Below, in pieces: positions 6,955 to 35,519 of a stretch of 35,519 nucleotides of DNA; positions within the stretch are counted from its first letter, which is position 1; each line of letters starts with the position of its first letter. The stretch spans positions 1 to 35,519 of the forward strand of contig CAMIVE010000016.1 of assembly GCA_946401725.1 (NCBI GenBank). Reading direction: 5' to 3'. The position numbers were made by a program, and so were the translations under genes. This stretch comes from an uncultured Bacteroidales bacterium. Its GTDB lineage: Bacteria > Bacteroidota > Bacteroidia > Bacteroidales > P3. The notes beneath the pieces were generated by a model. It was not told the DNA's origin and did no database searches. It saw only the letters and a program-made list of their open reading frames with translations.

Positions 6955-9639
6955 TTACTGGATTTTTCGTTTCTCCTCTATCTCCGATTTTACCCAGGGC
7001 TTGTTGAGGTCGAATAGTTCGTCGATGGGATGACTCAGTTTCTCCACCAGCAAGTGGGTGTTGTCTTGATGCTCGATATTTTCCAGTTCGCAAGCTATCT
7101 GTTTCCAGTCGTGTGCCGCGTCGAGTAGTGTGATGAAATTATATAAGTCGAAATTATTGATAATCATATTGTCAATACCTTCTGTTTCAATCTTTGAATG
7201 AGCTCTTGCCAATTTGATCTCTCCCACCTCTTCCAGTACGTGGAGGTATTTTTCGTAAAGCACATATTCGTTGAGTAGAAACGCCACATTGCGATCGCTG
7301 AGCATGTCCCATATCCTGGTGGGAAGTGGGCGTGCTACAAAGCGGCCTAACATGAAAGACCCTGCTTTTAGCCCAGTGAGTCCGTTCGCAAGACAGGCAT
7401 CAATGGCTTTGCAGAAAAAGTCCACTTTCCGGTCGTTGCTCAATAAGTTGAACACGCGAGACTGGTCGAGGTGATCCCCCATCCTGCTTTCAAGTACTTG
7501 TTTAATATACAGGCTTGAATTCTCTTCATACCATTTGTTTACGACTCCTTTTGCTGTCAGTGGCTTGTCTTGTAGTTCGCAGCGTATCAGTCGGGCCAGT
7601 TTATTGACATCGGTAATGAAAGAGGTTTGGTTGGACGTTACTATCTCCTGGTAGCAGAGATAGGCTTCTTTCATCTCTTCAAAGACTTGAATCTCGCTCT
7701 CGTCCAGTTTGACGGGATCTCCCTTAAGGTATTTGGTGAACCGTGCCGGTTTGAAGGCGGCAACGCCTTTATAGATCGTTTGATGGTTGCTGCTGATGGT
7801 GATTTTGTCGAGTTCGTGAATGGTCATTCCTTCGTTGTTTACCAGGCTGTTGTCCACCATACGGATGCCGTAGTTCTGCAGGTTCATCAGGGCGGGGATG
7901 CCATATCCTCGGCAGGCGGTAACTACATGGATGGCTGCCGGTGTCATGCTGAGAATGGCGTCGAGTTCCCCGAGCGTAATGGTATCTTCGGGAACAAAGC
8001 GTTCCTGGCAAAGACAGACCGGTGTGCCGCTTTTTTTGAGTTCTTGTGCTTTCTGTGCGGAGAAACAGAGTGTTGCAGTGATTGCGGTTCGGGGTAGTAC
8101 ATTCAATCCCTTGCCGAAAAAATCGAGACGGGACACAGAGCGGTCATCGATAGAGTTGCTGACAATTTGTCGCAGATGATAGGGCTTGATTAGAGACGTT
8201 ACATCGTGCTCTTCTATCAAACCTCTTTTTAACAGGTCAATCGAGGAGATGAGTGCGGCGCGTCCTGTCATTTCGGATTTGTTGAGTTGCAGCAAAGCGA
8301 AGAGGCTCACTTTCCCGGGTCGTGTCTCGACGGCAAATTCAATAGTGACAGGCGATTTGTGCCGCGCTTCGAGCGAATCAAGCAGCGGGTCGAAGTGGAA
8401 CACAGCTGGATAGTCGTGCTTGATTTCCTGTCGGTCGGAATAGGCGATGTCGATGGAGGTGACATCGCCAGTCATAATCTCTTCGCCGAAAATGTTGCGG
8501 TAACTCTCTATCTGACGGCCTTTTCCCGTACGGCTATGGTAGCTGTAGAGTACACCGGGATAAGATTCTTCGTTGCCGATGGTCCACACCATTCGTTGCA
8601 AAATAAATGATGGATATGCCTGCTTGCCTTGCATGAAGGTGAGGATGAGGTCCTGGTTGTCAATGTAGAATTTGCGTACATGTTCAATCAATTGCATGGC
8701 TTGGTAGTGGGCGTCGGTCAACAGCCGTTCGCCGTCCTCCCTGGCTTCTACAATGGCATGTTCCATGGCAGCGATGCGATTGGTCTGCTCTTCGGCGGAG
8801 AGTTCGATGTCGTTACGATCGTATCGCTTCTCGATGGACAACATCTCGCTGATGGTATGCAGTGTACTGAGATATACGCGGTTGGCCATGGTGTTGACGT
8901 AATGCAGGCAGAGCCCTTTGTGGGCTTTGCGTGTCACACCGACGTTGAGCAGTGTGGGCATCAGGCCGGGTATGTATTGCGGCATGGCGCAGCGGATGGC
9001 AAATACGAGAGGGCGTTGGTCGCTTCCCAGAAGATGGGACGTCATGATTTCCAGATTGTGGATGGCTTGCTCCAGCAGATAGTTCAGCCGTTCAGGCTGC
9101 AAAAAAGCTTTAGCCGTAATGATGCAGAAGTCGGGGACAGGGTAGCAGTTGCGTGTCAAATCGAGTAACATGCGTCCTTTGTAACTGATTTGCTCGTCGG
9201 TCAGGTCGCCCTCGACAAGGGTCGTGATCAATTCGTCGGAGTTGAAGAGTGGGTGTTGCGATACATAATCCTGGCATTTGGCTCTGAAAGCATCGCGGAG
9301 CTGTTCCAGTTCGCTGATTTTTTCAGGTTCGTAATTGGCAGCTTTACGTTCGTCGCATAAGGCGTCGCCAAACCGTTCGCGAAGCAGCATCTCAAGATAA
9401 TGCCGCTGCTTCTCGCCCTGTTGGTGCATCAGATAATACATGTCGTACCATCGTGGCGGAAATTCATGCCGCTGGTCGTCATCCCGCAGTTTGTATATGA
9501 CAGTGCCGGGCTTGTTGCCTTTCAACACGTTGTCTTTGTCTTCAATGTTGCGGTTGAAGATTTCGCGCCCTTCATCGGCGTATTTCTTCACCATGAAGTA
9601 GTTGGGATAGCTGGCTCTAATGATGAAATCGGTTATCAT
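6955..9639 (-). CDS. Pyruvate-phosphate-dikinase-like protein lacking the PEP/pyruvate barrel
   Basis: The 894-residue protein aligns by eye with the first two parts of PPDK. After an N-terminal extension of about 130 residues comes an ATP-grasp region: YKGRMLLDLTRNCYPVP (Lys154, like PPDK Lys22), FAIRCAMPQYIPGLMPTLLN (Arg216, like Arg92), and TIEFAVET with Glu434 and Gln451. The phospho-histidine domain follows; AAIHVVTACRGYGIPAL aligns with TSHAAVVARGMGKP and keeps the histidine as His571. The Arg normally found after the Gln (QTR) is not conserved. Residues from about 640 show no TIM-barrel motifs and form an unrecognised helical region. By family logic it may pass a phosphate from ATP via histidine to an unknown acceptor. 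It follows the S41 protease gene after 19 bases and is probably the last gene of that unit. Confidence 0.75.
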   Translation of the reverse strand: MITDFIIRASYPNYFMVKKYADEGREIFNRNIEDKDNVLKGNKPGTVIYKLRDDDQRHEFPPRWYDMYYLMHQQGEKQRHYLEMLLRERFGDALCDERKAANYEPEKISELEQLRDAFRAKCQDYVSQHPLFNSDELITTLVEGDLTDEQISYKGRMLLDLTRNCYPVPDFCIITAKAFLQPERLNYLLEQAIHNLEIMTSHLLGSDQRPLVFAIRCAMPQYIPGLMPTLLNVGVTRKAHKGLCLHYVNTMANRVYLSTLHTISEMLSIEKRYDRNDIELSAEEQTNRIAAMEHAIVEAREDGERLLTDAHYQAMQLIEHVRKFYIDNQDLILTFMQGKQAYPSFILQRMVWTIGNEESYPGVLYSYHSRTGKGRQIESYRNIFGEEIMTGDVTSIDIAYSDRQEIKHDYPAVFHFDPLLDSLEARHKSPVTIEFAVETRPGKVSLFALLQLNKSEMTGRAALISSIDLLKRGLIEEHDVTSLIKPYHLRQIVSNSIDDRSVSRLDFFGKGLNVLPRTAITATLCFSAQKAQELKKSGTPVCLCQERFVPEDTITLGELDAILSMTPAAIHVVTACRGYGIPALMNLQNYGIRMVDNSLVNNEGMTIHELDKITISSNHQTIYKGVAAFKPARFTKYLKGDPVKLDESEIQVFEEMKEAYLCYQEIVTSNQTSFITDVNKLARLIRCELQDKPLTAKGVVNKWYEENSSLYIKQVLESRMGDHLDQSRVFNLLSNDRKVDFFCKAIDACLANGLTGLKAGSFMLGRFVARPLPTRIWDMLSDRNVAFLLNEYVLYEKYLHVLEEVGEIKLARAHSKIETEGIDNMIINNFDLYNFITLLDAAHDWKQIACELENIEHQDNTHLLVEKLSHPIDELFDLNKPWVKSEIEEKRKIQ

Positions 9640-13768: not shown

Positions 13769-16489
13769 GTGTCGAAACAAAGAAACTATAACACCTATCG
13801 TATGATGTTCCCCGAGTTCATCTACGAAAGTTTTCACTACGATGTGCAGTCTGACGGACTGCACATCTCGTTTTGTTTCCGTTTGAACGACAAGTTGGCG
13901 TTCGAACCCACGGCAATCATACCTTCCCGTCCTTTTCTTCATCCAGAACGGCTGTCGAAGAAAACACTCGACACATTGGTGTTTCATATCGGAATGATCG
14001 AATTGATCAGCTACTGGAAGGCTTATTGCTCACCGACAGTGGTGGTGAAACCTTTCCGTTTGACCGATAAGCAGCTGGATTTTTGGCGGAAACTCTATTT
14101 CAACGGATTGGGAGAGTTTTTCTATACCAACCGTATAGAAGCCACCATGGATGATTTCATGCAGTTCCGTTGCGAGGGTTCCTCTTACACGGCACCGATC
14201 GCCGACCGGTTGTTCAATTCGCCCGCGGGACTTGATACTTTCGACACGCATCTTGTGCCTATTGGTGGTGGCAAGGACTCGGTGGTTACCCTTGAGGCTT
14301 TGAGTGGTTCAGGGCCGCAGGTAAGGCAGTCGACTAATCGTCCGTTGCCACTTATCATGAATCCCCGCGGGGCAACAGTCGACTGTGTCGCCCGGGCTGG
14401 TTACACGATGGATGAGGTGTTGGTCATCAAGCGGACGATCCATCCGTTGTTGCTCGACCTTAACCGGCAAGGGGCGTTAAACGGGCATACCCCCTTTAGC
14501 GCTATGCTGGCGTTTTATACGCTGCTGGCTTCGGCGCTGACCGGCTGCCGTCCGGATATTGCACTCTCCAACGAGAATAGCGCCAACGAGAGTACCGTCT
14601 CAGGCTCGTCGGTCAATCACCAGTACTCCAAAAGTCTGGAATTTGAAAATGATTTCCGCAGCTATGTTGCGGACTACCTGTCCAAGGAATTCAATTACTA
14701 CAGTTTCCTGCGCCCTCTCAGTGAGTTGCAAATTGCCATGCTTTTCGCGCAGCAGGAGAAATACTTCGATGTCTTCAAGAGTTGCAATGTGGGCAGTAAG
14801 ACGGATGTCTGGTGCGGTCATTGTGCCAAATGTCTGTTTGCATACATTATATTGTCTCCATTTATTGCACCCGAGCGCCTGGACGCTATCTTTGGCAAGA
14901 ATATGCTGGACGACAAAAGTCTCCAGTTGGAGTTTGACCAGCTTACGGGACATGCTGAAACGAAGCCTTTCGAATGTGTGGGTACCGTCAGCGAAGTGAA
15001 CAGTGCCTTGTCGATGACGCTTGCCAAGTGGTACAACGATAAGCGTCCGGCACTTCTTGTCGACTATCAGCCCATACCGCTTGTTACGCCGCTCGATACC
15101 TTGTTTGCAGAACATCATGTGCCTGTCAATGACTTGGAGAAACTTCATTCCGTGCTTCATGGCGGTGACGCTGTCGAACGTGTTTTCCGTTACCGGGAAC
15201 TGTTTAACTTGTTGGACGGTAAGAATATCCTGATTGCAGGATACGGTCGGGAGGGTAAGAGCAGTCACTCCTTATTGCAACGATTGTTTCCCACTCGCCG
15301 TTTTGACATAGCGCAGAATAACGAAGAGATTGTTGCAGCGTTGAAAGCCAGGGATTACGACATGATCCTCAAGTCTCCCGGGATTCCGTTCTTTTTTTTC
15401 GATGGATTGTGTGACAGCGCTATTATTTCGTCTCAAAGTGATCTTTTTCTGCAACTCTATGGCGATCATACGGTGGGTGTGACGGGAACCAAAGGCAAGA
15501 GCACCACCACAATGGTTATCTACGAAGCCTTGAGATTTGGTGGCGCTCGAAAGGTGGTGATGGCTGGCAATATGGGTATCCCATTGTTTGATATCATTCC
15601 CGGGCTCAATGATGATACCACTATCGTTGCGGAGTTGTCGTGCCATCAGTTGGAAGGCATTCATCGGGCACCTCATATCGGCGTGATCCTGAATCTTTTC
15701 CAGGAACATCTTGACCATTACCGCAGTTATGAGGATTACCAGATGGCCAAAATGCAGATGGGATTGCAGCAAAGAGAGGGTGATGTGTTGTTTTATTGCG
15801 GGGACAACGAAGCACTCTCCAATAAGATTTCAGCCTTACGAGACCGGTTGCGTTCCCAAGTGGTGCGCTATTCCGGTGAGGATATAGCGCATGATGCGAT
15901 AGATTGGAGCGGCAGCAAACTCAAAGGGCATCATAATATGACAAACTGCAGAGTGGCTGGACTTGTGGTACAGCAGTTTGGGGTCAGTCAACGTGATTTC
16001 TCACAGGTATTATCTCAGATAGTTCCTTTGGAGCATCGCCTGGAGGAAGTGGCTACCGTTGACGGGGTGACCTACTTTAACGACTCTATCTCCACCATAC
16101 CGCAAGCAACCATTGAGGCGGTTCGTTCGTTGGAACGTGTCGATACGTTGATTTTGGGTGGTTTTGACCGGGGAATCGACTATGCTCCGTTGGTACATTT
16201 CCTTTGCCATAGCGAGGAGGGTAGGCGTATCCGCAATCTTGTCTTTTGGGGGTCGGCCGGCGAACGTATCCATGAGGCTTTCTGTCAAGAAAACGATGTC
16301 CCCAGAAACGAGCAGTGCCATTTTGGAGACGACTACAGTATGCGGGAAGCAGTGGCCTTTGCAGCTCAAAACAGTTGCAAAGGACATATCTGTCTGCTCT
16401 CTCCTGCCGCGTCGAGTTATGATCACTACAAGAACTTCGAATATAGAGGACGAGACTTTAAGGAATGTGTTAACTCGTTAGTGTCTTGA
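13769..16489 (+). CDS. MurL-like epimerase fused to MurD2-like glutamate ligase
   Basis: This 906-residue protein joins two peptidoglycan precursor enzymes. Residues about 1-440 resemble MurL, the ATP-using UDP-MurNAc-L-Ala-L-Glu epimerase: a P-loop-like PIGGGKDSVVTLE at 164-176, NPRGATVDC at 198-206, LSNENSANEST at 266-276 and a CGHCAKC cluster at 349-355. Residues about 480-906 are a Mur ligase: IAGYGREGKSS (489-499), ATP-binding GTKGKSTTT (573-581), ELSCHQLEG (622-630), FQEHLDHY, GHHNMTN (721-727), HRLEEV (756-761), NDSISTIP (771-778) and GGFDRGIDY. NDSISTIP in place of the DSKATN of ordinary MurD fits the MurD2 group, which adds L-Glu. Together they would make UDP-MurNAc-L-Ala-D-Glu. The longest frame starts at GTG 13769; ATG 13802 (codon 12) is an alternative. 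The gene lies 22 bases upstream of an M20 amidohydrolase gene. Confidence 0.82.
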   Translation: MSKQRNYNTYRMMFPEFIYESFHYDVQSDGLHISFCFRLNDKLAFEPTAIIPSRPFLHPERLSKKTLDTLVFHIGMIELISYWKAYCSPTVVVKPFRLTDKQLDFWRKLYFNGLGEFFYTNRIEATMDDFMQFRCEGSSYTAPIADRLFNSPAGLDTFDTHLVPIGGGKDSVVTLEALSGSGPQVRQSTNRPLPLIMNPRGATVDCVARAGYTMDEVLVIKRTIHPLLLDLNRQGALNGHTPFSAMLAFYTLLASALTGCRPDIALSNENSANESTVSGSSVNHQYSKSLEFENDFRSYVADYLSKEFNYYSFLRPLSELQIAMLFAQQEKYFDVFKSCNVGSKTDVWCGHCAKCLFAYIILSPFIAPERLDAIFGKNMLDDKSLQLEFDQLTGHAETKPFECVGTVSEVNSALSMTLAKWYNDKRPALLVDYQPIPLVTPLDTLFAEHHVPVNDLEKLHSVLHGGDAVERVFRYRELFNLLDGKNILIAGYGREGKSSHSLLQRLFPTRRFDIAQNNEEIVAALKARDYDMILKSPGIPFFFFDGLCDSAIISSQSDLFLQLYGDHTVGVTGTKGKSTTTMVIYEALRFGGARKVVMAGNMGIPLFDIIPGLNDDTTIVAELSCHQLEGIHRAPHIGVILNLFQEHLDHYRSYEDYQMAKMQMGLQQREGDVLFYCGDNEALSNKISALRDRLRSQVVRYSGEDIAHDAIDWSGSKLKGHHNMTNCRVAGLVVQQFGVSQRDFSQVLSQIVPLEHRLEEVATVDGVTYFNDSISTIPQATIEAVRSLERVDTLILGGFDRGIDYAPLVHFLCHSEEGRRIRNLVFWGSAGERIHEAFCQENDVPRNEQCHFGDDYSMREAVAFAAQNSCKGHICLLSPAASSYDHYKNFEYRGRDFKECVNSLVS

Positions 16490-16511: not shown

Positions 16512-17603
16512 ATGAAAACAGAAGATTATTATAGCACTATCCGTCAGCAGTTGCATGACCATCCCGATGTGTCGGGGTGCGAACGGTATGCCCACGATCT
16601 GGTGATGCGTGAGTTACAGCAACTCTCGCCCGACGAATGCTATGACCATGTGGGAGGGTACGGTGTAGTGGCCTATTGGCGTTCGAAGTACCCTGATGCA
16701 AAGACCATTGCCTTCCGTGCCGATATGGATGCTTTACCTATCGGTCACCGATGCGGTCATGACGGACATACGACTATTATGCTGCGTTTTGCTGAAAGGG
16801 TGGCCTCTTGTTCGGAACGGCGTTATAACATTCTTATTATTTTCCAGCCCGAGGAGGAAACGGGTCTGGGAGCGCAGAAGATTCTGGATAGTGGCTTGTT
16901 GCAGCGCCATGACGTACAAGCCGTTTTTGGTTTGCACAATCTGCCAGGTGTCCCGCTAGGGACGGTGGTGCTCAATCCCGGGACCTTTGCGGCAGCCTCG
17001 ACAGGGGTGATTTATAAGCTGCAGGGTCGGGAGACGCATGCCTCCACGCCAGAGAAAGGACTCAATCCGGGACTGGCGATTGCAGAGATTATCCAGCGAT
17101 TCGATAAATTGAGCAACCATTCGGAGTCATTGTCAGAATTCCGCCAGTCTACCCTTATCTGCAGCAGGGTAGGGGAACCTGCTTTTGGCACATCGGCAGG
17201 AGCCGGTGAGGTGATGTTTACGCTTCGGGCCTACACCAATGCCACAATGACCGAATTGGAGGGCACCGCGGACGCCATAGTTGAAGAGGTTGCGAAGAGA
17301 GAACATCTGCAACTGCGTATGGAACGACGGGAACCTTTCCGTGCGGTTGAGAACACTCCTGCGTTGGTGGAGCAGACGGCGTCGCTCTTCGAGTCTTATA
17401 TGCCTATTGTCATGACCACCACGCCGTTCCGCTGGTCGGAGGATTTTGCTGACTATCTGCGGCTGTTCCCTGGAGTCTTCTTTGGTATCGGATGTGGCTT
17501 GAACCATGCCGAGCTCCATCATCCTGACTATGAATTCCCCGATGCACTCACTGTCCCTGCATCCCATTGTTTTGAATTAATTATGAATTATATAGCTCTA
17601 TGA
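16512..17603 (+). CDS. M20D-type amidohydrolase (N-acyl-amino-acid hydrolase family)
   Basis: The family removes acyl or aminoacyl groups from amino acids using two metal ions. The 363-residue cytoplasmic protein (no signal peptide) has LHDHPDVSG near the start, RADMDALPI (69-77), the metal ligands in HRCGHDGHT (79-87), QPEEE (112-116), GLHN (about 140-143) and HAELHHPDYEFPD near the C-terminus. The stretch of roughly 15-20 residues usually found between RADMDALPI and the CGHDGH motif is missing, so the substrate pocket rim is probably changed. Its stop codon overlaps the start of the C69 dipeptidase gene (ATGA at 17600), so the two are translationally coupled. The substrate is unknown; the context suggests a glutamyl or muramyl peptide, which is only an inference. 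Confidence 0.87.
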   Translation: MKTEDYYSTIRQQLHDHPDVSGCERYAHDLVMRELQQLSPDECYDHVGGYGVVAYWRSKYPDAKTIAFRADMDALPIGHRCGHDGHTTIMLRFAERVASCSERRYNILIIFQPEEETGLGAQKILDSGLLQRHDVQAVFGLHNLPGVPLGTVVLNPGTFAAASTGVIYKLQGRETHASTPEKGLNPGLAIAEIIQRFDKLSNHSESLSEFRQSTLICSRVGEPAFGTSAGAGEVMFTLRAYTNATMTELEGTADAIVEEVAKREHLQLRMERREPFRAVENTPALVEQTASLFESYMPIVMTTTPFRWSEDFADYLRLFPGVFFGIGCGLNHAELHHPDYEFPDALTVPASHCFELIMNYIAL

Positions 17604-19231
17604 AAAAAGTATTCCTTTTATTTAGTGCCCTTTTCTGCGTTGTCACGCTGAAGGCACAGACCAATGAAGTCTTGTTCAATTCGCAGCTGGTCGACGGTCA
17701 ATCGTGCACTTCCATTATGGTGGGCAAGAAGGCTTCGGCAGATGGTTCTGTCATCACTTCACACACTTGTGACGGCCGTTACCGCACCTGGATGTCCATG
17801 GAACCAGCCAGGGACTACAAACATGGATCCGTACATACGGTTCTCCGTGGAACCATGCATACCACTCATTGTGATGACACTACGGGTGTGCGCGTTATGG
17901 GAACAATTCCGCAGGTGGCCCATACATACGCCTACCTGAATACTGCGTATCCTTGTCTCAATGAGAAGCAGTTGGCGATAGGGGAAACCACTTTTGGCGG
18001 CCCCGATACACTTGTCAACAAAAACGGTATGTTCACCATCGAAGAGTTGGAGCGCGTGGCGCTTATGCGCTGCGACAATGCTCGCGATGCGATTCGTTTG
18101 ATAGGAAAACTCGTCAAGCAGTACGGTTATGGAGACGGTGGCGAATGTATCACCATTGCCGACAAGAACGAAGTGTGGCAGATGGAGATTCTGGGTGAGG
18201 GACCCGACAAGATTGGCGGTGTCTGGGCTGCCCAGCGTGTTCCCGACCATCATGTCGCAGTCAGTGCCAATATCCCTCGTATCGGCCGTTTGTTGCGGAA
18301 CAATCCCGATTATTTCATGTGTTCAGACAACATTGAAAAGGTGGCTCGCAAGTATAATCTGTGGGACGGCAAGGGTGAGTTTATCTTCTGGAAGGCATTC
18401 AATGCTTCCTATGCCAATGGAAAGAACTTCCGGGAGAGAGAGTTCTATATTTTCAATGCCTTGGCTCCATCCCTTGGTCTCTCGATGGATATGGATGAGT
18501 TGCCCTTCTCCGTCCGTCCCGACCAGAATGTTGATGTCGCCGATGTGATGCAGTTGCTGCGCTCCACTTATGAAGGAACCGAAATGGACATGTGCCGCAA
18601 CGTGCAGATGGTCAAAGCCATGAAACAGAAAGATGGCACAATGAAGTACGACACCATCATCAGTCCGCTGGCCAATCCTTGGATGGGTGGCAATATGCAG
18701 TCCACGCTCAACTACTTGAAGCCCGGCACGGTTGAATTTCGTCGTACCGTCAGTGTCGCCTGGTGCTCCTATTCTTTTGTGGCGCAGCTGCGTAACTGGC
18801 TTCCCGACGAGGTGGGCGGTATCTGCTGGATGGCGGTTGACAATCCCGGACAGAGTCCACGGGTTCCCATCTTCTGTGGAGCTACCCGACTGCCCAAAGC
18901 ATACGATATCTGTGGTCAAAAGTCTTTCAACGAGAATGCGGTTCTTTGGCAATTCCGAAAAGCCAACAAACTCGCCACTGTCGCATGGCAGAACACCAAG
19001 GAAAGCATGACGAAGACATTGTTTAAACTGGAGGAGGATGCCTTTGGAGGGCTTGCAGAACTGGAGCGTACCGTGAAGTCCTATAAGTCTCGCGAGAACG
19101 AAGACTACGATCCCCGTGCACAGATTGCCAACCTGCTGAACGACTATACCTACCAGGTCTACGACAAAGCCGCTTACGCCTGGAAGCAGTTGGAGACGAA
19201 ATACTGGCAGATGTTCGGTATGGGATTTTAA
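17600..19231 (+). CDS. Secreted C69-family dipeptidase
   Basis: C69 (PepD-like) enzymes are N-terminal-nucleophile hydrolases that split dipeptides. The 543-residue product has a signal peptide ending at about KAQ (residue 20), then a short propeptide and the predicted nucleophile Cys36 in QSCTSIMVGKKASADGS, the family's usual N-terminal block after self-processing. RNWLPDEVGGICW is a conserved late motif and recurs in the second C69 gene at the right edge. It should act in the periplasm on short peptides taken in or released from the wall. It overlaps the M20 amidohydrolase gene by 4 bases and is the last gene of the unit, ended by the hairpin at 19251-19274. Confidence 0.92.
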   Translation: MKKVFLLFSALFCVVTLKAQTNEVLFNSQLVDGQSCTSIMVGKKASADGSVITSHTCDGRYRTWMSMEPARDYKHGSVHTVLRGTMHTTHCDDTTGVRVMGTIPQVAHTYAYLNTAYPCLNEKQLAIGETTFGGPDTLVNKNGMFTIEELERVALMRCDNARDAIRLIGKLVKQYGYGDGGECITIADKNEVWQMEILGEGPDKIGGVWAAQRVPDHHVAVSANIPRIGRLLRNNPDYFMCSDNIEKVARKYNLWDGKGEFIFWKAFNASYANGKNFREREFYIFNALAPSLGLSMDMDELPFSVRPDQNVDVADVMQLLRSTYEGTEMDMCRNVQMVKAMKQKDGTMKYDTIISPLANPWMGGNMQSTLNYLKPGTVEFRRTVSVAWCSYSFVAQLRNWLPDEVGGICWMAVDNPGQSPRVPIFCGATRLPKAYDICGQKSFNENAVLWQFRKANKLATVAWQNTKESMTKTLFKLEEDAFGGLAELERTVKSYKSRENEDYDPRAQIANLLNDYTYQVYDKAAYAWKQLETKYWQMFGMGF

Positions 19232-34638: not shown

Positions 34639-34941
34639 TCAGCCCCTTTCCAGTAGGAAGCTGACGGGACGGAAACCGTCGTTGCAGCTTATCAGGGCGC
34701 TGTAGGGGTTTTGCATCCAACCGTCATAGAAATTGCCGCGTCCCGCAGCCAGTTCTTCGACGAACCATCGCATGGATTCCCATGCGCTCTCACACATACC
34801 TTCCGGTTTTTTCCCATCGGTGCTGGTCCAGGTGTCGCCTTCGTTGATGTCGCAGGCGTGCTGGATAGGGTTTTCGTATTTTGCCTGCAAGTCTTTGTAG
34901 TCAGCCTTGCGGATGGCGGTTATCTTGACTTGATACATCAT
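34639..34941 (-). CDS. TIGR04076-family small protein
   Basis: The 100-residue protein matches the TIGR04076 pattern: an opening KITAIRKADY, EGDTW, PEGMCESAWESMRWFV and the end SCNDGFRPVSFLLERG. The family's role is unknown. No signal peptide is seen. Its ATG at 34941 overlaps the stop of the C69 dipeptidase gene (ATGA), so the two are translationally coupled; a second ATG follows at once at 34938. Confidence 0.82.
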   Translation of the reverse strand: MMYQVKITAIRKADYKDLQAKYENPIQHACDINEGDTWTSTDGKKPEGMCESAWESMRWFVEELAAGRGNFYDGWMQNPYSALISCNDGFRPVSFLLERG

Positions 34942-35519
34942 CTTTCTCTCCTTTTAATCACCTCCTGTAGCCGGTAACGGTCGCCGGTGGCAGGACCGAC
35001 GGCATCGATAAAGGGCTGTCCGTAGCCGGGCGTGTCGTAGCCCCAGCGTTGGAAATCGCCCTTCTCGTCGGTGCGGCGCACCACCTGGTCGTTGTATTTC
35101 ACTATGAGGTATTTCGCCAGCTTATCCCAGCGTTGCATCATGCGTTCGGCATAGGCGATGCTTTTCCGGTTCAGGTAGTCGCGCCGGTCGGCGGGCGTCA
35201 TCTTGTCGATGGCGGCAAGCACGCTGTCTTGGTCTGCAAAGTAGTAATCCTCCAGCTCTTGCTGTGCTGCGCGCAGGTCGCCGATCATCATCGAGTAACG
35301 CGGGTATACCATGTTGGCCACCCAGTTGTTCATCCAGAACGCCGACTGGAACGAGAATTCGTTGCGCGGGTTGTTCTCGGGACGGAAGCAGTCGGGTACC
35401 TGTGTGATGCAGCAGTAGAGCGGCACATAGGCTACCATGTCGGCGTCGTCGCAGTTGAACCAGGTGATGCCGCCCACGTCGTCGGGCAGCCAGGAGCGCA
35501 TCTGGCAGGTCATGGTGAA
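34938..35519 (-). CDS. C69-family dipeptidase, C-terminal part only
   Basis: The open frame reaches the right edge; 193 residues are visible. MRSWLPDDVGGITWF, followed by VPLYCCITQVPDCF, parallels RNWLPDEVGGICW and VPIFCGATRLPKAY of the C69 gene at 17600-19231, so it is a second member of the same family. The tail is more divergent (QRWGYDTPGYGQPFIDAVG). The nucleophile region and any signal peptide lie outside the window. It is followed by the coupled TIGR04076 gene. Confidence 0.88.
   Translation of the reverse strand, partial: FTMTCQMRSWLPDDVGGITWFNCDDADMVAYVPLYCCITQVPDCFRPENNPRNEFSFQSAFWMNNWVANMVYPRYSMMIGDLRAAQQELEDYYFADQDSVLAAIDKMTPADRRDYLNRKSIAYAERMMQRWDKLAKYLIVKYNDQVVRRTDEKGDFQRWGYDTPGYGQPFIDAVGPATGDRYRLQEVIKRRER

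Follow-up and report, generated by a model that had tools for sequence, protein, structure and literature searches.

A MurL-MurD2 fusion protein in Bacteroidales and its probable role in supplying cell-wall D-glutamate without glutamate racemase

Organization of the Locus

The window (the whole stretch of DNA analysed here, 35,519 nucleotides of contig CAMIVE010000016.1 from an uncultured Bacteroidales bacterium) harbors a gene in which MurL and a complete MurD-type ligase are fused in one frame (Table 1). This frame runs without interruption over 906 codons on the forward strand, from a GTG start to the stop at position 16489, and many relatives open with MS[KR]Q at the place equivalent to the GTG. 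The predicted structure of the whole protein reached a pLDDT of 92.4 and a pTM of 0.87; for the MurL half (modelled as residues 1-440) the mean pLDDT was 90.0. A homologue search found 737 proteins. Among the best 120 of these 737, 119 span 98-100% of the protein, with identities of 45-100%; the identical one (P0001) is the window's own entry, and P0058, which covers 72%, is the sole shorter one. The genome bin from which the window originates is 59.7% complete; absences in this bin alone therefore mean little, and larger surveys carry the argument.

Table 1. Features of the fusion gene and of neighbouring genes (coordinates in the window)
Feature	Position	Strand	Basis
894-aa protein	6955-9639	-	weak pyruvate phosphate dikinase match, 114 bits vs cut-off 843
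murL-murD2 fusion gene, 906 aa	13769..16489	+	GTG start; frame and profile matches
MurL epimerase half, residues 1-422	13769..15034	+	NF041275 match 17-422; predicted model
PP-loop PIGGGKDS, residues 164-171	14258..14281	+	alignment of MurL rows
Four-cysteine motif C339-x9-C349-x2-C352-x2-C355, probable zinc site	14783..14833	+	MurL alignment, QueC comparison
Linker, residues 423-476	15035..15196	+	partly helical by prediction
MurD2-type ligase half, residues 477-906	15197..16486	+	
Mur ligase P-loop TGTKGKST, K577 at E. coli MurD K115	15482..15505	+	alignment
E646, at E. coli MurD D182 / X. oryzae MurD2 E197 (review's numbering)	15704..15706	+	alignment
I774, at E. coli MurD K319	16088..16090	+	alignment
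R801, at E. coli MurD K348 / X. oryzae MurD2 R358	16169..16171	+	alignment
M20 amidohydrolase gene, 22 nt past the fusion's stop	16512..17603	+	TIGR01891 over cut-off
C69-family dipeptidase-like gene	17600-19231	+	
Second C69-family dipeptidase-like gene, cut by window end	34938-35519	-	

The MurL Half and Its Kinship to PP-Loop Enzymes

In a search of NCBIfam profiles, residues 17-422 match MurL_Xanthmoales (NF041275) with E 2.4e-79 and 267 bits, a score that falls short of the 700-bit equivalog cut-off; X. sacchari MurL, at 836 bits, clears it. The identity between the two proteins is approximately 35%. Residues G166-S171 of the PP-loop are invariant across 131 aligned MurL rows (re-fetched duplicates included) and are the same in X. 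sacchari MurL; so are the four cysteines, which encompass CGHCAKC and form a probable zinc site. Profile and motifs support membership of the MurL family, though the score remains below the Xanthomonadales cut-off.

Unexpectedly, the predicted MurL fold is nearest to the QatC/QueC PP-loop enzymes, which agrees with the ATP-to-AMP chemistry published for MurL. The window protein combines GGGKDS with C(x)9CxxCxxC, as compared with SGGxDS and C(x)8CxxCxxC in QueC, where the latter is described as the zinc motif (PMC13329287). When MurL is compared with E. coli QueC by hhalign, the alignment is confined to the cysteine region, where the register is the same, and is weak (E 0.0049, probability 7%). 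Since the QueC family (PF06508) is not among the Pfam matches of the window protein at E up to 0.1, MurL is regarded as a fold-level relative of QueC and not as a family member. It also differs from the QatC/QueC/Cap9 enzymes in its substrate and in catalyzing epimerisation in place of amidation. The main text of two QueC papers (PMC13329287, PMC13279940) contains no mention of epimerase, peptidoglycan, or MurL.

MurL homologues annotated as hypothetical are also found on two Pseudonocardia plasmids (L134, L135), beside a convergent WD40-repeat gene and with no MurD annotated adjacent to them. The PP-loop of L134 has R instead of K. These homologues possibly represent another use of the MurL fold.

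The Ligase Half and Its Predicted Specificity for L-Glutamate

Residues 524-902 match the murD profile TIGR01087 of NCBIfam (E 8.5e-73, 246 bits) above its 212-bit cut-off. At the sites of E. coli MurD D182, K319, and K348 (numbered as in the literature, with the start Met left out of the count), the window protein and X. sacchari MurD2 alike carry E, I, and R. The window's NDSISTIP occupies the place of NDSKATN in E. coli MurD, and because the residue alignment puts I774 at K319, the DSISTIP loop is the K319 site and is common to Xanthomonas. Published mutants bear on these sites: the E197D/R358K double mutant of X. oryzae MurD2 turned to the use of D-Glu, and MurD accepted L-Glu, or accepted it better, with K319T in the E. 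coli enzyme or K330T in that of S. mutans (PMC8788868). At the positions of A414 and L416 the window protein has S/Y vs P/F in Xanthomonas; the residues at these sites did not set specificity in the published mutants (PMC8788868).

The pattern extends to a set of 101 MurL-linked ligases, consisting of the window's own copy and ligases adjoining or fused to MurL, and also taking in L030, encoded on a different contig of a genome that has MurL, and L048, which lies at the end of a contig. At D182, 100 rows are readable: 99 have E and L119 retains D. K319 is replaced by I in 98/98, and K348 by R in 98/98. The 19 canonical MurDs of the order show D in 18/18, K in 19/19, and K in 19/19 readable cases. 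Twenty canonical loci had first been chosen, one of which (L155) was dropped as it is the MurD2 of G014. Of 120 fused database proteins, P0001 included, 119 were alignable, and E/I/R is present in every one of them. A quick tree of 56 ligases sets 36 MurL-linked ligases and X. sacchari MurD2, the lone MurD2 reference and a long branch, opposite 19 canonical enzymes (E. coli MurD and 18 of the order) with an SH-aLRT of 99. Residues and tree thus support a C-terminal half of the MurD2 rather than the MurD type. The original prediction, made from the letters of the DNA, had read one protein with MurL motifs (PIGGGKDS and CGHCAKC) in its N-terminal half and a full, MurD2-like Mur ligase with an NDSISTIP loop in its C-terminal half, and each part of this reading was borne out by the profiles, alignments, tree, and near-full-length relatives described above.

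Three genomes (G041, G048, and G049) carry a canonical MurD (L154, L152, and L153, respectively; K/K, and D where readable) alongside MurL and MurD2. MurI was not found in them by a PF01177 search, nor in G041 and G048 by TIGR00067. This MurD may stem from contamination or have a second role.

Source of D-Glutamate in MurL Genomes

The usual source of D-Glu for the wall is MurI or a D-amino-acid aminotransferase (PMC8788868, PMC5808125). A survey of 295 genomes of the order, every one at least 90% complete save the window's own, revealed mutual exclusion of MurL and MurI: 95 genomes have MurL, 187 have MurI, 13 have neither, and none has both (Fisher p 1.3e-63, a value that ignores relatedness). 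These 95 MurL genomes belong to 39 families, none of which has a surveyed genome with a strong MurI match. MurI was counted by TIGR00067 at E below 1e-25, which 187 genomes reached, 186 of them above the curated cut-off. Weaker TIGR00067 matches (E 1.5e-5 to 4e-21, the strongest in G682) in 22 of the 95 MurL genomes were counted as not MurI, and weak or partial MurL matches in four genomes (G498, G547, G616, G628) were left out of the MurL count.

PF01177 was rejected as a MurI marker; it takes in racemases other than MurI, and the count was therefore made with TIGR00067. Among the order's 95 MurL genomes, PF01177 matches 29. Ten PF01177 proteins, from 12 stretches fetched, scored far higher as TIGR00035 amino-acid racemase or cysteate racemase than as glutamate racemase, nine over the TIGR00035 cut-off and one at 91.4 of 93.1 bits. 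A racemase of an aspartate/glutamate type might make some D-Glu in those 29 genomes. In G618 (L183, G618:C1:3500-6800), a TIGR00035-type racemase gene precedes MurL by approximately 0.8 kb, in the same orientation.

Within the genus of the window, no PF01177 racemase was detected in any of 37 genomes (completeness 60-100%), and neither PF01177 nor TIGR00067 matches anything in the window's own bin, at 59.7% completeness. Once pieces of the linked MurD2 are set aside, the remaining Mur-ligase matches listed for the genus are remote (approximately 23-33% identity), as we would presume for MurC, MurE, and MurF, and no close second MurD is among them. The lack of a PF01177 racemase and of a listed close second MurD in the genus agrees with the original prediction, which saw MurI as possibly dispensable. 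D-amino-acid aminotransferase (TIGR01121) was over its cut-off in 0/61 relatives, in a weak test (matches under the cut-off in 57/61; controls passing in 1/14). Neither MurL-MurD2 nor MurI was detected in the genus genomes G012, G018, and G035; as these lack the M20 neighbour too, a gap in assembly or binning is a likelier cause than gene loss. G051 (98% complete) likewise has no detected MurL or MurI, and no close MurD match (best E 3.2e-9).

Distribution and Origin of the Fusion

The unfused murL-murD2 pair is widespread in the order. In the genus survey (37 genomes), five have the one-frame fusion and 26 have adjacent murL and murD2 genes; MurL and MurD2 lie on separate contigs in G014, and G017 and G019 offer contig-edge pieces alone. 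Across the order, MurL resides within a frame of more than 850 aa in 6/95 MurL genomes, i.e. the window's and five others that were confirmed as fused. In a collection of named genomes, a MurL relative is encoded in at least 572 of at least 586 stretches; the best 80 named MurL loci comprise 4 fusions, 59 with MurD2 as a separate neighbouring gene, and 17 without MurD2 in the fetched DNA. Record titles trace the MurL-bearing named bins to the rumen, the gut, and other sites. The MurL of one named locus, L061 from a Candidatus Colimorpha bin, is identical to the MurL of G013, a member of the window's genus. A phylum-wide NF041275 search gave a full-length match in one of 392 genomes (the window's own) and two short weak ones, in a draw that held few genomes of the window's order and was searched with this profile and not with the better MurL profile derived from relatives.

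In a quick MurL tree (100 of 256 domains, 30 fused; 39/94 inner branches below 80 support; long outgroup rows), the window and 14 other rows, all fused, form a clade with an SH-aLRT of 100. Parsimony requires 11 changes between the fused and the separate state, at least six of which are forced by well-supported branches; these 11 changes do not distinguish fusion from splitting. The fusion occurs beyond the window's genome and arose or was lost several times. X. sacchari has murL-murD2 in the same gene order with a 20-nt overlap, and in G030 both genes lie in one frame with two stops between them. Such an overlapping or adjacent arrangement makes fusion easy.

Proposed Function and Alternative Explanations

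The fusion protein is very probably a bifunctional enzyme of peptidoglycan-precursor synthesis, a reading that draws on sequence comparison. Its MurD2 half would join L-Glu to the cell-wall precursor and its MurL half would then flip the L-Glu residue to the D form, so that D-Glu for the wall would be supplied without glutamate racemase. An adenylate may form in the PP-loop pocket of the MurL half, and the fusion may hand the intermediate from one active site to the other. For the fusion protein itself, activity, order of the steps, channelling, and adenylate chemistry are what we infer.

A plausible alternative, to which we give a little less than even weight, concerns the passage of the intermediate: both halves would be active, with the fusion fixing stoichiometry or co-translation only and the L,L intermediate diffusing freely. 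The prevalence of separate genes among relatives (as in 59 of the best 80 named loci) and the two overlapping genes of X. sacchari speak for free diffusion; the repeated fusion read from the MurL tree is compatible with channelling but is not proof of it. It is far less probable that the C-terminal half is an ordinary MurD that adds D-Glu obtained from another enzyme or from the surroundings, with the MurL half doing something else. The murD score over the cut-off, the named database entries of homologues, which read D-glutamate ligase, and the PF01177 racemases, all outside the genus, fit such an enzyme; however, X. sacchari MurD2 also passes TIGR01087, so this profile does not separate MurD from MurD2, while the E/I/R residues, the side taken in the ligase tree, the lack of a strong MurI match in any MurL genome of the order, and the empty PF01177 search of the genus argue against it, the aminotransferase search adding a weak point in the same direction. 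That two separate genes only look fused through misassembly or a frameshift error, as the adjacent pairs of the genus and the stop-separated frame of G030 could suggest, carries a negligible probability given the uninterrupted frame, the full-length fused chains in many contigs, the fused-only clade, and the forced label changes.

The preferred bifunctional reading rests on a pathway already known. In Xanthomonas, both the MurD2 and the MurL reaction are established, the latter converting ATP to AMP and running one way from L to D, and homologues from Micromonospora and Salinispora were confirmed in vitro, according to the review PMC8788868. X. oryzae MurD2 (XOO_1320) and MurL (XOO_1319) belong to the same two families and carry out the reactions proposed for the fusion (PMC8788868), as two proteins and not as one chain as in the window. 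The route via MurI and canonical MurD differs in making free D-Glu first and in a ligase with D/K/K. The two reviews consulted (PMC8788868, PMC5808125) place MurD2/MurL in a limited set of gamma- and alphaproteobacteria and actinobacteria, not in Bacteroidales, and mention low-similarity counterparts in a fungus, cyanobacteria, and an amoeba. Other fusions join a Mur ligase to another wall-precursor step, as in the window: MurC-Ddl (PRK14573), MurE-MurF (PRK11929), and MurF-alanine racemase (PRK11930), the last also pairing a ligase with a stereo-inverting enzyme. By their NCBIfam names, these are set apart in having no MurL or MurD2. No description of a MurL-MurD2 fusion, or of MurL in Bacteroidales, was found in the literature searched, which covered few subscription papers, in keeping with what the original prediction had supposed of the fusion.

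With about a third of the surveyed genomes (95/295) having MurL without a strong MurI match, and some having MurL and MurD2 as one chain, these findings bear on which gut bacteria are reachable by a MurI-directed or a MurD2-directed compound. The fusion is also a compact enzyme for the study of the obscure MurL reaction, and the likeness to QatC/QueC is a structural clue to its mechanism.

The Downstream M20 Gene and the Rest of the Window

Where flanking DNA suffices, the M20 gene adjoins murL-murD2 in most loci of the genus; one exception is G003 (L166), in which MurD2 and the C69 gene have no M20 gene between them. P0007 is a triple fusion, with profile matches to MurL at 8-413, MurD at 506-888, and amidohydrolase at 901-1235, and P0011 lists the same Pfam domains. 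In G014, M20 is fused to MurD2 alone in a 779-aa frame (L155:1191-3530). Repeated fusion of M20 suggests a task shared with MurL-MurD2. A wider reading, which we put forward tentatively and hold to be plausible though short of probable, would see a racemase-free, single-chain D-Glu machine that was fused several times in Bacteroidales, with MurL as a PP-loop enzyme of the QueC/QatC type that has moved from amidating a carboxylate to carboxylate-activated stereo-inversion, and M20 as a third working part.

The 894-aa protein upstream of the fusion has no Pfam match at E 0.1. It is found near the same locus in several relatives.
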